NCBI GenBank assembly: GCA_017469025.1
Contig: JAFUHD010000360.1
Location: 1 to 32,746, forward strand
Direction of reading: 5' to 3'
Origin: Clostridia bacterium
GTDB taxonomy: Bacteria > Bacillota > Clostridia > Christensenellales > Aristaeellaceae
Length of the DNA: 32,746 bases
Shown: positions 1 through 32,225 of the stretch, in pieces
Layout: each line of letters starts with the position of its first letter
Position numbering within the stretch: the first letter of the stretch is position 1
Translations under genes and position numbers: made by a program
The notes under the pieces: model-generated
Databases searched by the model: none
What the model was told of the DNA's origin: nothing
Seen by the model: only the letters and a program-made list of their open reading frames with translations

Positions 1-239
1 TAGCCAAATAAATTAATGAAAACAACCCGTTATTGCACATCTGTTATGACCGAAGCATGGCATCGTCCCCAGTTTTCTGTTATACTGAACACATTACAGA
101 CAGCAGCAAAACTGTACGATAATCAGCCTGTCTGATAACAGGAATAATGCAGTCCGTGACATCTTGTGGGCATGGTATTCGGATTGCTGAAAATGGCATT
201 TGGACTGATACGGTACCTATAGCACGTCTTTACGGAGAT
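1..239 (+). other. Non-coding upstream region with possible promoter and degenerate repeat unit
   Basis: No convincing gene is visible. An extended -10 (TG, one base, then TATACT at 81-86) could start a transcript of about 245 nt ahead of the 331 gene, but its -35 is poor. A small hairpin (CCTGT / ACAGG) lies near 124-139. Bases 206-229 match bases 285-308 of the downstream repeat at 20 of 24 positions, so a degenerate partial copy of the repeat core sits 79 nt upstream of the good copy. Confidence 0.4.
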
Positions 240-323
240 GGCCCAGCACTTCGTGCTGGTTTGTCAAATCATGACAACTGCAATTGATACGGTGCCGAAA
301 GCACGACTATGTCATTAAAGGAG
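240..323 (+). repeat. Structured leader repeat, copy 1
   Basis: This non-coding element immediately precedes the 331 gene and ends in its Shine-Dalgarno (AAAGGAG, 317-323). It contains hairpin I (CCAGCAC 243-249, loop TTC, GTGCTGG 253-259), an inverted repeat (TTGTCA 261-266 / TGACAA 272-277), and hairpin III (GTGC 292-295, CGAAA loop, GCAC 301-304). ATGACA at 271-276 can instead pair with TGTCAT at 310-315, enclosing hairpin III and ending two bases before the Shine-Dalgarno region. Over 64 nt it differs at only three positions from copy 4 at the far end of the window. The RNA role is an inference; a mobile promoter/leader or an IS-derived repeat is the alternative. Confidence 0.85.
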
Positions 324-330
324 ATTCATC

Positions 331-723
331 ATGGGCATCATCCGACAGTTGAATAAAAAAAACGGCAAAGTGATGATCTACGAAACGTATACCGAAACAG
401 ATCCGGAAACTGGCAGGAAGCGCACCAGACGCAAATACCTTGGTACAGAAAATCCTGATGACGGTTCCATCATTCCCTCCTCCGGAAAGCGCGGCAGAAA
501 GCCAGGCATCCCTAACCGCCCAAAGGTTGTCTCTGAAGAGGCACTGTCTGGAAAAATAGACGAACTCAGAAAACTTCAGGCTGAAGAACAGGCACTGATG
601 GAACAGATTAGAGTGCTGAAGCAACAGACTGCAAAAATGCATGAACTCTTTCAGTCCATTTCAAAAGTCCTGTCCACTCTCTCGGATGAGATGCATGACA
701 CAAAGCAGCAGATGGACAAATAG
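331..723 (+). CDS. Small coiled-coil protein with AT-hook-like motif
   Basis: A 130-residue protein of unknown function. The start follows AAAGGAG with a 7-nt spacer, both supplied by the repeat element. Residues 1-50 (lysine/arginine-rich, a YETYTETDPETGRKRTRRKYLG-type stretch, then GTENPDDGSIIP) resemble in style the N-terminal segment of IS1634-like transposases, where a 'GKIDPETGEI.P' block occurs. Residues about 53-58 (KRGRKPG) look like an AT-hook core for minor-groove DNA binding. Residues about 68-128 are heptad-like, rich in E, K, Q and L, and likely a coiled coil. No transposase catalytic domain follows, so it is either a stand-alone DNA-binding/coiled-coil protein or a domesticated fragment of a mobile element. 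It lies 48 nt before the FIST-HD-GYP gene on the same strand and could be co-transcribed. Confidence 0.7.
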   Translation: MGIIRQLNKKNGKVMIYETYTETDPETGRKRTRRKYLGTENPDDGSIIPSSGKRGRKPGIPNRPKVVSEEALSGKIDELRKLQAEEQALMEQIRVLKQQTAKMHELFQSISKVLSTLSDEMHDTKQQMDK

Positions 724-771: not shown

Positions 772-2679
772 ATGTGGCAAAAACACTTCGAGTACCATAC
801 AATTGATGAAACCATACAGGATATTCCCGAGATTGCAAAGATGCTTGCCGCCATTCCTCACAGAGACGCGCTTCTGATCATCTTTACAACGGCAATTGGG
901 AAGTCAGACTTTGAACGGCTCCTGCCGGTTCTTGACCATCTTCTGCCGGATATCAGCCGTGTCGGTATTTCTGAATACCCGATGCTTGACAATACACCTG
1001 AAACTGCCGTCAAACTCAATCTGATACTGGCCAAGGAAACCCGTTTTACACCGGTTCAGATTCCATGCCTTCCCGGCAGCGAATGTGCTGCAGCAGATCA
1101 GCTGAGTGCCATCATGAAGGATATCCCGGATATCAAGGGCGTCCTGCTTTATCCGTCAAACCCGTCGCTTGACATTACGGCATTTCTGCGTATCGCATCC
1201 GACGGTTGCGGCGATATTCCATTCTTTGGCGCCTCTGCATTGCCAATGCAGTCCTATGAAACAGATCATCCAGACTTTGGAAATGCATTCTGTATCGGAC
1301 AGACTGCCTGTAGCAGCGGCTTCTCCACTGTTATTCTGTCAGGTGCCGAGCTTTCTGTCCATGTTGAATACATTCTGGGCTGGCAGCCGATCGGCCGGGA
1401 GATGGCCTTTACGCTCGGACCGCGCAGTGGCGTGGGTGAAAGCACGGTACATACCATTGACCGGCAGCCTGCCATTGATATCTACCAAAAATATCTGGGC
1501 GTTGGCTGGGACGAACATTTCGTGCTGAACGTCTGCGAATTTCCGCTGATGGTGGAGCGGAACGGAATGAAGATCTGCATGGTTCCGTTCAGAACGGAAA
1601 ACGGCGATCTGTTCTTCGCCGGTCCGCTTTACAATGGAGAACGCCTCCGGTTCTCATACTGCACACATGAAGAACTGCTCGGTGCTACCGAATCTGCTGC
1701 TAACCGCATGACTGCTTTCGAACCGGATGCACTTATCCTGACACTGTGCGGAAACCGTATCCGTTTCCTGCGCGATCAGGCTTCCACCGAATGGCATCGC
1801 TTTCAGGCAATCCTGCCCGATCTCACATACAGCCATGGAAACTGTGAACTGTTTTACCAGAATGGAAAAGGCGGTGTTCTCAACAGCGCTTTCGTGGCCT
1901 TCGGCATGCATGAGCATTCCAGATGTCCCCATCCCCTGCCCGGATATCAGTTGCCGGAAACAGCAGGTATTCCTGATCAGAATCCCATCCCGCTTTCCTA
2001 CCGCGTTTCCCACTTTTTCCACGTCATGACAGAGGAACTGGTCAGTCTTGAACAGAACCTTGAAAATGAAGTGAGACTCAAGACCCAGGAAAATGAAAAT
2101 CTTGCACTGCATGTCGTAATGACGCTGGCAGATGCCATTGATGCCAAGGACACCTATACCAACGGCCATTCCGCACGCGTTGCACAGTATTCCCGGGAAA
2201 TTGCCCGCCGGTATGGCTATACACAGCGCCAGCAGAATGCCATCTACATCATGGGACTCCTTCATGACGTTGGAAAGATCGGTGTACCGGACGCTGTAAT
2301 CAACAAGCCATCCAGACTGACAGATGAGGAATTTGCACTCATTAAAACACATCCGGCCGTCGGCGCCCGTATTCTTGGAAACATCCGGGAAATGCCGCTT
2401 CTTGCCACCGGTGCCCACTGGCATCATGAACGCTATGACGGGCACGGCTATCCGGACGGACTGAAGGGAACGGATATTCCTGAAGAGGCGCGCATCATTG
2501 GTGTCGCAGATGCATATGACGCCATGACCAGCAACCGGAGCTACCGGGGTTCCATGCCGCAAAGCACCGTACGTGAACAGATCGTAAAAGGACGCGGTAC
2601 ACAGTTTGATCCTGTTTTCGCGGATATCATGCTGAAAATGATTGATGAAGACCGGGATTATACCATGCGTGAAACCTGA
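772..2679 (+). CDS. FIST sensor / HD-GYP cyclic-di-GMP phosphodiesterase
   Basis: A 635-residue cytoplasmic signalling protein. Residues about 30-400 fit FIST_N and FIST_C, a family proposed to bind small ligands such as amino acids. A helical linker (about 420-450, 'EQNLENEVRLKTQENE') leads to an HD-GYP domain (about 455-625). Its HD pair is in LLHDVGKIG (His498, Asp499) and the signature HHERYDGHGYP starts at His551, so the metal site and GYP loop look intact. HD-GYP proteins hydrolyse cyclic di-GMP to pGpG or GMP. There are no membrane segments or signal peptide. The start at 772 has no good Shine-Dalgarno; an in-frame stop at 763 prevents a longer form. A strong terminator follows. FIST domains more often sit on kinases or GGDEF/EAL proteins, so the HD-GYP pairing is less usual. 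Confidence 0.9.
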   Translation: MWQKHFEYHTIDETIQDIPEIAKMLAAIPHRDALLIIFTTAIGKSDFERLLPVLDHLLPDISRVGISEYPMLDNTPETAVKLNLILAKETRFTPVQIPCLPGSECAAADQLSAIMKDIPDIKGVLLYPSNPSLDITAFLRIASDGCGDIPFFGASALPMQSYETDHPDFGNAFCIGQTACSSGFSTVILSGAELSVHVEYILGWQPIGREMAFTLGPRSGVGESTVHTIDRQPAIDIYQKYLGVGWDEHFVLNVCEFPLMVERNGMKICMVPFRTENGDLFFAGPLYNGERLRFSYCTHEELLGATESAANRMTAFEPDALILTLCGNRIRFLRDQASTEWHRFQAILPDLTYSHGNCELFYQNGKGGVLNSAFVAFGMHEHSRCPHPLPGYQLPETAGIPDQNPIPLSYRVSHFFHVMTEELVSLEQNLENEVRLKTQENENLALHVVMTLADAIDAKDTYTNGHSARVAQYSREIARRYGYTQRQQNAIYIMGLLHDVGKIGVPDAVINKPSRLTDEEFALIKTHPAVGARILGNIREMPLLATGAHWHHERYDGHGYPDGLKGTDIPEEARIIGVADAYDAMTSNRSYRGSMPQSTVREQIVKGRGTQFDPVFADIMLKMIDEDRDYTMRET

Positions 2680-12890: not shown

Positions 12891-12990
12891 TCATGGCATA
12901 CGATATGGTATTGGTCTGATGGCACCGGGCTGCCTGAAACGGTATCTTCTGGTGATTCAGTCCCGGCCCCTGACAGCATCATAGGGAGAG

Positions 12991-13075
12991 GACCCGGCAC
13001 TTCGTGCTGGTTTATCAAATCATGACAACTGCTTATGATACAGTGCCGAAAGCACGATTATGTCATAAAGGGAGG
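12991..13075 (+). repeat. Structured leader repeat, copy 2
   Basis: This copy ends in the Shine-Dalgarno of the LacI-family gene (AAAGGGAGG, 13068-13075 region). Hairpin I is CCGGCAC (12994-13000) / GTGCTGG (13004-13010): the A-T pair of copy 1 becomes G-T, still pairing as G-U in RNA. The long-range stem ATGACA (13022-13027) / TGTCAT (13061-13066) is intact, as is GTGC (13043-13046) / GCAC (13052-13055). The short inverted repeat is broken here (TTATCA versus TGACAA), so the long-range pairing is the better conserved one. Confidence 0.82.
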
Positions 13076-13083
13076 TTTAAGAC

Positions 13084-14106
13084 ATGTCATCCGGCGGAAA
13101 CACGATTTATGACATTGCCTCGGCTGCTGGTGTCTCCATTACAACAGTTTCCCGTGTGCTGCGCGGCGAACCAAATGTCGCCCAAAGGACGCGGACCAAA
13201 GTTGAAAACGCCATTGAGCAGCTTCAGTACCAGCCGAATGCTGCCGCACGCGGCATGGCCGGCGGAAAAACCGGCACGCTCGGGATCGTACTCCCCCAGC
13301 TGTTAAACCCGCATTATGCAATGATCTATACCGGTGCCGTCAGCGCTGCCATAGAGAGCGGACAGAATCTGCAGCTTTTCTCAAGGCATGATATTCTCGG
13401 CAAAGGCGCATCCGCCCTCCCCGCCCTGATGAATCCGCATCTGGACGGCATCGTCCTCTATCTCGAATATCCTCAGCGGGAGGGTCTCGAACAGCTTGAA
13501 AAAACGCTGAACGAAATACACCGTTCCATGCCGTTCGTTCTGATCGGTACTGTCGCCCCGGAACTGCCGTACCCGGCCATTTCCTATAATATGGCTGCCA
13601 TCATGAAATCAACGGTAAGTTATCTGACCGGCCTCGGACACCGGCGGATCGCTTTCATCGGCGGTGCGGCTGACAGCACAAACGAACTCCGCAGGGATAT
13701 CGGCTATCAGCAGGGGCTGCGCGAAGCCGGCATTATCTATCGGGATGATTACAGGATACCCTGCAGTGATACCCTTGAGGCCGGCAGTAGCGCACTGCGT
13801 CAGCTGCTTGATCACCTGCCACGCAGCGAATGGCCGTCTGCCGTTATTGCACTCAACGATCTGGTCGCTACTGGCCTCATGGCATCTGCCCGTACTTACG
13901 GACTGCGCCTGCCGGATGACCTGTCGGTCATCGGATGCGACAATCTGTTCTATGCACCGTACCTGACACCATCCCTCACAACCATAGATCTCCATCAGCA
14001 GCAGCTCGGCATAAATGCCATCCGTCTGCTGCTCAGCGGCGATTCACGGCGTGAAAACGCTGCCTGGCACCTTATCGAGCGTAATTCCTGCCGGCCGTAT
14101 TTCTGA
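13084..14106 (+). CDS. LacI-family transcriptional regulator
   Basis: A 340-residue regulator with an N-terminal helix-turn-helix (TIYDIASAAGVSITTVSRVLRG, residues about 7-28) and hinge helix (YQPNAAARGMAGG, about 48-60). A periplasmic-binding-type effector domain follows (GTLGIVLPQLLNPHYAMIYTGA onward), ending in the usual VIGCDNLFYAPYLTPSLTTIDLHQQQLG. It most likely binds a sugar or uronate derivative and represses the divergent importer, and perhaps the pectin operon, through the AAAGCGCTTT sites. The start follows GGGAGG. It is transcribed away from the importer, a standard arrangement for local control. The unusual part is its leader, which carries the dispersed structured repeat. Confidence 0.93.
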   Translation: MSSGGNTIYDIASAAGVSITTVSRVLRGEPNVAQRTRTKVENAIEQLQYQPNAAARGMAGGKTGTLGIVLPQLLNPHYAMIYTGAVSAAIESGQNLQLFSRHDILGKGASALPALMNPHLDGIVLYLEYPQREGLEQLEKTLNEIHRSMPFVLIGTVAPELPYPAISYNMAAIMKSTVSYLTGLGHRRIAFIGGAADSTNELRRDIGYQQGLREAGIIYRDDYRIPCSDTLEAGSSALRQLLDHLPRSEWPSAVIALNDLVATGLMASARTYGLRLPDDLSVIGCDNLFYAPYLTPSLTTIDLHQQQLGINAIRLLLSGDSRRENAAWHLIERNSCRPYF

Positions 14107-19188: not shown

Positions 19189-19264
19189 AATATGTCCGAC
19201 TGCCCGTTGTAATCTGGCAGGCAGCACTGATCATTTGCGGAAAACATGCCTCTGCTTTGCACCG

Positions 19265-19328
19265 TTTTTTCAAAAATGATATTTGCAATTGATTCGGTGC
19301 CGAAAGCTGTACCATGTCATTGAAGGAG
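19265..19328 (+). repeat. Structured leader repeat, copy 3 (diverged, lacks hairpin I)
   Basis: It aligns end to end with copies 1 and 2 from the TTxTCAAA segment through GCAATTGATTCGGTGCCGAAAGC to the Shine-Dalgarno AAGGAG of the next gene. Hairpin I is absent. The long-range stem becomes ATGATA with TGTCAT, keeping all six pairs if one U-G wobble is allowed. The GTGC/GCAC hairpin is altered, but GGTGC (19296-19300) can pair with GTACC (19309-19313) instead. These changes preserve pairing rather than sequence. Confidence 0.78.
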
Positions 19329-19334
19329 AATACC

Positions 19335-20585
19335 ATGCTCTACTCAGACAAACTTTACCGCCTTGCCTTTGATTTTTATGATATTGCCCCCTGGAAAAAG
19401 ATCCGTGACGCACAGCTGTTTGCCTTCCATTCGCAAACATTTGACAGCACCATGTACTGCAGCATCACCGGGACTATTGGTGCATTGCTCGGACTCACGG
19501 TCTATACGGATGTAAAGGGACTTCAGTTTCTGTACGACTTAAGCACTCACTCCCACGATGTTCTCACTAACTTTCTGCCGGGAGACGGCTCCTATTCCAC
19601 CATGTTAATCAATGCCGTACAGTGCATTTTCACAGATCATCATGAAACCTTTCCGGAACAGATGCAGGCACTTAAAGCCTATGCGGACAAATATCATGAA
19701 ACCTATACCGGAAAACAGGACATCCCGACGTTCTACAATGTACTCCCGTTTCGGCAGCCATTTTCCCTTCATGATCCTGAGCGGCTCAAAGTACTTGAAG
19801 AAGCATTGTCTGCCTTTATGGTCTTTGACCGGGAATTTGGCCCGGACTATGAAGAAATCCCCCTGCTGTCTCCTGCCAGCCCCGTCACGGTTCCGCTTCT
19901 CATTCCGGACGGCAGCCACTGGCGCATAGTTTCACATAAACTGCCTGCTTATGAACCGGAATACCAACTTGATACGATTCCGTTCACCAATGATATCCTC
20001 CTTCAGAAACTGCGCCGCCTGCCCAGACTGGGTTCGGTAGACTGCATGTTGACGGTTATGCCTACTGCTGTAGCAGAGGAAGATACTGCCGTCTTTGCCG
20101 AGGCATTAATTCTTTACTGCCGTGAAAAGAGCTTTTTTGCACCACCTGCACTGGACCTGCGCGCACGCGGTGAAGAAGATGCATACGTATGGTCCAGAAT
20201 TCTGAATCAATTTGCCAGAGATACCCTGCCCGTCCACTTGAAAGCACTTCCCAATACCATTTATTACAACGGGCAGCGCACCTTCTGTGTACTCTATGAC
20301 CTCTGCATAAAGCTGCACATCAACCTCATAGCCAAAGAAAAAATGCCTGAACTTGAGCATCTGATTCAGAATATGGCACAATCCTTGTACCAGGAAGGCG
20401 GTGGAGAATTCTCAGATAATGAAGCGCTTCTGCTTCCTCTTCTTTCCGAGCTTGAAAAGCTTCCTTCATCTGCGCTTTACCTTATGCCAGATGAAGCCAA
20501 GGCTTTTCTCCGGTCCGTCAATCTCAAAGAGTGCAGCCCGCCTATTGCTGAGCGGCTGAAAAAGCTGCTGAAACGCTTATCCTGA
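19335..20585 (+). CDS. Uncharacterised protein resembling DUF7309/DUF6930 proteins
   Basis: A 416-residue protein of unknown function. The start at 19335 is supported by AAGGAG 8 nt upstream; an in-frame ATG at 19314 lies inside the leader repeat. The N-terminal part (WKKIRDAQLFAF, then MYCSITGTIGALLGLTVYTD at about 42-61) matches my memory of the DUF7309 pattern 'W..d.lFgv...YCSVMG..GE..GL.vY'. The C-terminal 200 residues, with RARGEEDAYVWSRILNQFA, look like a DUF6930-type region. There is no signal peptide, and no catalytic motif that I can name. It stands alone after the serine hydrolase and is closed by a strong terminator. The assignment is from pattern memory and should be treated as moderate. 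Confidence 0.65.
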   Translation: MLYSDKLYRLAFDFYDIAPWKKIRDAQLFAFHSQTFDSTMYCSITGTIGALLGLTVYTDVKGLQFLYDLSTHSHDVLTNFLPGDGSYSTMLINAVQCIFTDHHETFPEQMQALKAYADKYHETYTGKQDIPTFYNVLPFRQPFSLHDPERLKVLEEALSAFMVFDREFGPDYEEIPLLSPASPVTVPLLIPDGSHWRIVSHKLPAYEPEYQLDTIPFTNDILLQKLRRLPRLGSVDCMLTVMPTAVAEEDTAVFAEALILYCREKSFFAPPALDLRARGEEDAYVWSRILNQFARDTLPVHLKALPNTIYYNGQRTFCVLYDLCIKLHINLIAKEKMPELEHLIQNMAQSLYQEGGGEFSDNEALLLPLLSELEKLPSSALYLMPDEAKAFLRSVNLKECSPPIAERLKKLLKRLS

Positions 20586-31966: not shown

Positions 31967-32050
31967 TTCATTTAATGACACAGATATGCTTTCGGCACCG
32001 TATCAATCGCAATTGTCATTATTTGACAAACCAGCACGAAGTGCTGGGCC
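31967..32050 (-). repeat. Structured leader repeat, copy 4 (orphan)
   Basis: Minus-strand copy with hairpin I (CCAGCAC 32031-32037, GAA, GTGCTGG 32041-32047), the inverted repeat TTGTCA (32013-32018) / TGACAA (32024-32029), and the GTGCCGAAAGC core at 31988-31998. The long-range pairing is 7 bp here (AATGACA with TGTCATT). A GAAGGA Shine-Dalgarno-like sequence follows, but no start codon with an open frame lies at a usable distance. It matches copy 1 at 61 of 64 positions, in opposite orientation. Confidence 0.83.
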
Positions 32051-32225
32051 AATTTCTCTGACCGTTTGACCTGCTACTATCCAGCGGCTGACTAATTGGA
32101 TACATTTCAAGTGATTACAAGGCTGTTCTTTAATAATATCACCACTCCTTCGAAAGGATCTATTCAGTCAGAACATGAACAGCAGCTGCTTTCCAAAGCA
32201 GGAGATAAAGGACAATCCTGTTATA
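32051..32225. other. AT-rich intergenic region
   Basis: No recognisable gene. The region holds short palindromes (AGCAGCTGCT; TCCTT / AAGGA) and is more AT-rich than the rest of the window, consistent with an acquired or eroded segment. Confidence 0.4.

Follow-up and report, generated by a model that had tools for sequence, protein, structure and literature searches.

The short repeat found in four copies in the 32,746-nt stretch of contig JAFUHD010000360.1 from a Clostridia bacterium (the window, i.e., the whole stretch of DNA analysed here) is probably a non-autonomous mobile element, which uses the Shine-Dalgarno motif of genes as target and re-supplies it at its own right end. The definition of the element as a repeat family and the position of its borders are well supported, and we infer its movement from these borders and from one empty site. 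The original prediction of the same element at four sites was borne out for all four, and the copies turned out to belong to a very large family (Table 1).

Table 1. Positions of the four copies, of the parts of copy 1 and of the adjoining genes in the window.
Feature	Position	Strand	Remarks
Left motif of copy 1, TACGGAG	231..237	+	read as host target; left 7-mers vary mainly at positions 1-2
Copy 1, complete 86-nt element	238..323	+	unit including left motif 231-323
Hairpin I of copy 1, 7 bp, 3-nt loop	243..259	+	
Conserved TTTGTCAAAT of copy 1	260..269	+	
Long stem P1 of copy 1, 5' strand ATGACA	271..276	+	sequence; helix 2, first four pairs
Conserved core GGTGCCGAAAGC of copy 1	291..302	+	
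Long stem P1 of copy 1, 3' strand TGTCAT	310..315	+	
Right end of copy 1, AAAGGAG	317..323	+	Shine-Dalgarno of the ORF at 331
130-aa ORF behind copy 1	331..723	+	without Pfam or NCBIfam match
Copy 2 with left motif	12982..13074	+	element proper 12989-13074
LacI-family regulator behind copy 2	13084..14106	+	Pfam
Copy 3 with left motif	19236..19328	+	older; hairpin I largely lost; AAGGAG kept at right end
DUF7309/DUF6930 protein behind copy 3	19335..20585	+	start moved from 19314
Copy 4 with left motif	31967..32059	-	right end decayed to AAATGAA; no start codon adjoining

The element has a length of 84-88 nt, follows an AAAGGAG-like (Shine-Dalgarno) motif immediately on the 3' side, and carries an AAAGGAG of its own at the right end. 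Behind the left GGAG-like motif, copy 1 consists of ATGGC, a 7-bp hairpin with a 3-nt loop (hairpin I), TTTGTCAAAT, ATGACA, a spacer, GGTGCCGAAAGC, TGTCAT and TAAAGGAG, and the conserved motifs of the element are TTTGTCAAAT and GGTGCCGAAAG. Hairpins are present near both ends, namely hairpin I on the left and the first four pairs of the long stem on the right. The predicted pairing of ATGACA with TGTCAT was found in copies 1, 2, and 4 and, with ATGATA and one U-G pair, in copy 3, and this pair as well as a G-T pair in hairpin I of copy 2 confirm the pair-preserving changes noticed before. The recurrence claimed for two hairpins applies only in part. Copies 1 and 4 show a perfect hairpin I, copy 2 shows it with the one G-T pair, and copy 3 has largely lost it, and the complete hairpin GTGC-CGAAA-GCAC is restricted to copies 1 and 2. 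Copies 3 and 4 have partly decayed and are older than the other two. Of the statement that three copies join the Shine-Dalgarno of unrelated genes, the connection stands for copies 1-3 with the ORFs at 331, 13084, and 19335; the ATG at 19314 given in the ORF table falls within copy 3, and the start of this ORF was reassigned to 19335. That these genes are unrelated agrees with the Pfam assignments, which give no family behind copy 1, LacI behind copy 2, and DUF7309 behind copy 3. The window also encodes a 635-aa fusion protein (772-2679, plus strand) of FIST N and FIST C sensor domains and an HD domain (Pfam HD_5), which is possibly a sensor-linked phosphodiesterase.

The borders of the element are indicated by the respective conservation values on its two sides. 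The left motif, evaluated in 58 arrays whose left unit is recent, shows A at positions 1-3 in 72, 72, and 93% and the following GGAG in 95, 86, 100, and 95%, with at most 0.19 bits anywhere further left. The right AAAGGAG, evaluated in 83 arrays whose right unit is recent, is conserved to 93-100% per position, with at most 0.21 bits beyond it. Among 39 recent single copies, AAAGGAG is present on the left in 18 and on the right in 29, and a variant occurs on the left only in 15 and on the right only in 4 (sign test p=0.019). Because the left motif varies and the right one is nearly constant, the former is regarded as host sequence and the latter as part of the element. In the related genome G002, the right end reads AGAGGAG in 9 of 19 real rows (our own count) and is one change away from it in most others, and AGAGGAG is found as left motif in 4 of 19, the left side being more mixed and the copies more diverged than in the genome of the window (G000). 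The element would enter directly behind AAAGGAG or a near match, and a gene with an invaded Shine-Dalgarno sequence would still possess one, provided by the AAAGGAG at the element end. A point against this explanation is that the uniformity of the right end could partly come from selection for translation.

Two other modes of integration would also yield similar motifs on both sides. A target-site duplication was rejected, since the motifs on the two sides are not duplicates of one another; among 21 cases with a variant left motif, 1 has the identical 7-mer on both sides. A conventional DDE-type MITE with an (A)GGAG target-site duplication would agree with the GGAG on both sides of most copies, but is highly improbable in view of these non-identical flanks, which differ in G002 as well, and of the terminal inverted repeats, none of which were seen in the four better-sampled families (e.g., ATGGCC... 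versus ...CATTAAAGGAG in G000). Alternatively, a tyrosine recombinase may integrate small circles site-specifically at an AAAGGAG core, which would be consistent with identical or nearly identical 7-mer flanks, scarless insertion, and tandem arrays. However, core exchange should place variants on either side, and their distribution of 15 on the left versus 4 on the right among the 39 single copies renders this a rather improbable alternative.

Movement of the repeat is suggested by the junction between parA and parB. A ParB match was obtained in 28 of the 29 genomes of the genus, and the upstream DNA was compared in ten of them. In G016, the junction is free of the element and consists of TAA, AGGAGGACAACT, and ATG, and that of G002 is also without it; the junction of G000 contains three units, which begin exactly behind AGGAG, and that of G015 one unit of its own type. 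At the corresponding site of G004 (C165, L221), there is a GC-rich hairpin stretch of another kind, which may represent a decayed older insertion. The parA-parB junction is the one clean empty site obtained: the G016 ortholog of another coupled gene (L292) is without the element and its left side is not alignable, and trmK was dropped as a second empty site, the upstream gene being different and the comparison not clean. In addition, the copy at G000:C64 101-192 (L328) very probably interrupts an IS91-type transposase gene at a coding AAAGGAG, as judged from the flanking sequences. Its right side aligns, beginning with the first codons, with a related protein of 437 aa from residue 53 on (52% identity, E=5e-123), and its left side is an open frame, whose sole match is a weak one of six residues (36-41, E=0.016). 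This copy is located near a contig end and outside the 84-array count of ORF placement given below.

The own genome of the window (G000, 4.25 Mb in 373 contigs) yielded at least 75 matches in a DNA search (40 of 334 candidates scored) and at least 169 matches at E <= 0.1 with a covariance model built from 20 copies (150 of 2419 candidates scored), so that the genome-wide check proposed with the original prediction gave a result beyond chance. A profile search of 653 kb, of which all stretches except the window had been picked for holding a match, retrieved 219 matches, including 187 of full length, which make up 129 arrays of one (70), two (32), three (23), or four units (4). The units of an array are arranged head to tail with a period of 86 nt, and other copies stand alone. 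Extrapolation leads to a total of roughly 300-500 copies in G000; the 97 kb from 16 contigs without a listed covariance-model match, a sample that biases low, still contained 7 matches. The arrays probably break the assembly, and their lengths would then be underestimated; in practice, 26 contigs have a listed match beginning within 150 nt of the first base. Among these contigs are C1, C38, C43, C70, C97, C117, C271, C292, and C325.

In 47 arrays with at least two complete units plus a right flank, the gene-proximal unit is nearer to the consensus than its neighbor in 34, further away in 12, and equal in one (sign test p=0.0016), and the mean unit scores fall from right to left from 91 (n=47) via 80 (n=47) and 67 (n=11) to 42 (n=2). 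This gradient fits insertion at the intact right-end motif as well as a stronger constraint on the proximal unit. By the former route, repeated insertion at the right-end motif would build up the arrays, with the newest copy beside the gene. Local duplication also occurs, since some neighboring units share private variants.

The association with gene starts was evaluated by crude gene calls in those 108 of the 129 arrays whose right end is present and followed by 200 nt or more. In 70 of these (65%), an ORF of 50 or more codons begins 3-15 nt past the right GGAG, and in 67 it begins 6-11 nt past it. The corresponding values are 8 of 96 for the outer left side of the arrays (Fisher p 1e-17), 107 of 1220 for random intergenic positions (p 3e-40), 58 of 149 (39%) for intergenic AGGAG outside elements (p 5e-5), and only 5 of 20 for the full AAAGGAG in intergenic DNA outside elements. 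Among 84 arrays with 450 nt on each side, 52 are coupled and 32 uncoupled, and none is located in a sense ORF and two opposite a long ORF. Most of the start coupling may be explained by targeting of AAAGGAG together with the loss of insertions into coding DNA, which would be purged, and the excess over AGGAG sites would be compatible with an additional preference, either for true gene starts or for a longer motif.

The structure of the element is conserved beyond G000. An alignment of 28 sequences from three species shows pairing of hairpin I in 100% of the cells and changes on both sides in 6 of its 7 pairs, which substantiates the claimed compensatory changes; the hairpin is kept with different stems in the three species. 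In the long stem, pairing amounts to 88.4% over the first four pairs, 2 of these 4 having changed on both sides, and the evidence for this stem is weaker, because RNAalifold returns hairpin I alone if run unaided. No element copy matches any Rfam 15 family (tested for the window at gathering score and for eight loci in E-value mode), two sub-threshold matches being both located off the element, which agrees with the statement that no named riboswitch shows such a layout.

This conservation bears on the possibility that the element is a cis-regulatory RNA, i.e., a structured leader of hundreds of genes which is read by a protein or ligand and kept by selection. Such a function would be in line with the paired changes in 6 of 7 positions of hairpin I, the conserved motifs TTTGTCAAAT and GGTGCCGAAAG, the distance of 6-11 nt between right end and start that is seen in 67 of 108 arrays, and the pairing of 0.848 in 56 diverged units scoring below 85, which exceeds all 1000 column shuffles (mean 0.81). 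However, a folded DNA substrate would show the same structure, the excess over the shuffles can be caused by inherited subfamilies as well as by a constraint on structure, and the insertion target AAAGGAG itself accounts for much of the start coupling. Moreover, 38 of the 108 arrays are without a start behind them by the test used, and the occurrence in arrays, the species-specific families, and the unrelated downstream genes do not fit this function. Old gene-proximal copies keep the hairpin no better than inner ones, albeit in small numbers and in classes cut by score: pairing is 0.86 (n=10) and 0.67 (n=6) in old start-coupled copies of two score classes, 0.91 (n=17) and 0.80 (n=15) in copies inside arrays, and 0.82 (n=4) in uncoupled right-hand units of the oldest class. 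A regulatory RNA is therefore considered unlikely. The promoter cassette also proposed is without support, as a sigma-70-type scan around copy 1 revealed no promoter-like site and no terminator pattern. Of the three readings offered originally, the mobile leader cassette or IS-derived repeat fits best, with no IS identified, and the new cis-regulatory RNA is not favored.

A view on related genomes shows that the repeat is confined to the genus among the relatives searched. The model trained on G000 detected 104 copies in G015 and 12 in G004, and by means of a model built from three families, with 22 candidates scored in each genome, 6 of 200 relatives were seen to carry copies, namely G000, G002, G004, and G015, and in smaller numbers G016 (2) and G023 (3). 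The five other carrier genomes show the same layout with a different sequence, and each well-sampled species has its own sequence family. Hairpin I is formed by CCAGCAC/GTGCTGG in G000, CCGGTGC/GCACCGG in G015, TCGACGC/GCGTCGA or CTGCCGC/GCGGCAG (some of the latter with a loop of 4) in G004, and CTGTTTGC/GCAAACAG in G002, and the respective long stems in G000, G015, G004, and G002 are ATGACA/TGTCAT, AATGT/ACATT, ATGAGC/GCTCAT, and AACGAGC/GCTCGTT. Two units near the G000 type (116 and 90 bits) are present at G015:C43:137-313 (L032, L035), the other 102 listed matches of G015 scoring at most 58 bits; to judge from their sequence, these units on a short contig may be due to transfer or contamination. 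An exact-pattern scan of genome contigs gave at least 52 stretches, 44 of which also match a profile; one of these (L119) is without hairpin I, leaving 43 in three MAGs. Viral contigs contained one pattern stretch, which has no profile match, and plasmid and phage sequences contained none.

No mobilising gene could be tied to the element. Y1 transposases are encoded in 16 of the 29 genomes of the genus and show no link to it, because carriers (4 of 6) and non-carriers (12 of 23) differ little (Fisher p=0.66). Y2 (IS91-type) transposases are found in 3 of 6 carriers (G000, G002, and G004) and in none of 23 non-carriers (Fisher p=0.005), and no Y2 match was obtained in G015, which is 75% complete. 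Note that G000, G002, and G004 are also the largest genomes after rounding, and that the Y2 distribution may be explained by shared ancestry: ParB identity groups four carriers (78-79% to G000), with 65% for G002 and at most 63% for non-carriers, the ParB of G023 not being found. In about 19% of the G000 genome, no autonomous copy was seen, and no ends common to the element and a resident Y1 element were found there or at the Y1 loci covered.

Both contacts between a transposase and the element in G000 look like one inserted into the other. A Y1 enzyme had been considered as mobiliser, since at one contig end a Y1 gene seemed to adjoin the left end of the element. It was dismissed when the same IS200 left end was found elsewhere without the element, indicating an IS200 insertion into a copy. 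The respective IS200-type element, apparently inserted into a repeat copy, is distributed over G000:C14 6503-6770 (L300) and G000:C163 1-130 (L299), with pieces of its transposase gene at two contig ends, and an isolated 41-nt match to its left end is present at G000:C54:7686-7726. Some element matches at the Y1 loci in G015 and G004 are weak or lie nearby, and these were taken as chance neighbors, given the density of the repeat. Likewise, Y2 was discarded as the parent, as the reading frame of the C64 gene seems to contain the copy found there, so that this gene looks like the victim of an insertion.

Single-strand transposition by HUH enzymes is marked by the absence of inverted repeats and target duplications, hairpins at the ends, a host motif on the left side only, and a target-like right end. 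The element may accordingly be moved in trans as folded single-stranded DNA by an HUH transposase of an IS200/IS605-like or IS91-like type, a plausible mechanism by analogy, if less firmly based than the insertion behind AAAGGAG. It would account for the lack of terminal inverted repeats, the hairpins near both ends, a host target restricted to one side, and a right end that imitates this target.

If these features are taken together, the repeat could possibly stand for a class of selfish elements which home on Shine-Dalgarno sequences, survive by rebuilding them, and occupy hundreds of gene starts without stopping translation, each insertion adding a structured unit to the 5' leader. This tentative proposal includes that they are moved by an undescribed enzyme or by an undescribed use of a known HUH enzyme, and that the folded ends are recognised more than the sequence, so that each species evolved its own sequence family. 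Since the target motif is re-supplied at the correct end, the entry of the element should do almost no harm at sites at which an insertion of random type would silence the gene. The repeat may thus serve as a testable case of an element adapted to a translation signal, and it provides a natural series of genes with one, two, three, or more structured leader units.

The available text of open-licence papers contains no report of a repeat targeting the Shine-Dalgarno sequence, and the known systems resemble the element only in parts. STAR and BOX are likewise interspersed intergenic repeats, STAR loci being described as differing between species, expanding and contracting (PMC3532100), and the pneumococcal repeats being read as parasitic (PMC3049150), but a Shine-Dalgarno target or an element-borne Shine-Dalgarno is not mentioned for them in the available text of these papers. 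REPs, and REPtrons with TnpA-REP, share the hundreds of short, structured, clustered intergenic copies, which are thought to be moved in trans by Y1 enzymes (PMC8266576). As defined in the same source, REPs are palindromes of 20-50 nt, mostly led by GTAG (PMC8266576), and this definition does not cover the element described here, which is without a GTAG-like tag, has two hairpins, and sits at AAAGGAG. In IS200/IS605 elements, guides 5' of the hairpins are reported to choose the cleavage sites (PMC8266576). The four better-sampled families of our element mostly retain a GGC immediately 5' of hairpin I, and this GGC is not a plain complement of GGAG. IS91-type rolling-circle elements use a specific short one-sided target, generate no target duplication, and may give tandem products, properties in which the repeat is alike, but no shared ends were seen, the ends at the Y2 genes not being comparable, and the IS91-type gene at C64 of G000 looks like an insertion victim. 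PATEs are non-autonomous relatives of IS200/IS605, and these as well as the IS200/IS605 MITEs agree with the repeat in having subterminal hairpins, a short left host motif, and a target-like right end and in lacking terminal inverted repeats and target duplications. In contrast to these relatives, for which the IS with matching ends was not found here, the element targets the Shine-Dalgarno sequence, comprises only 86 nt, and forms arrays.
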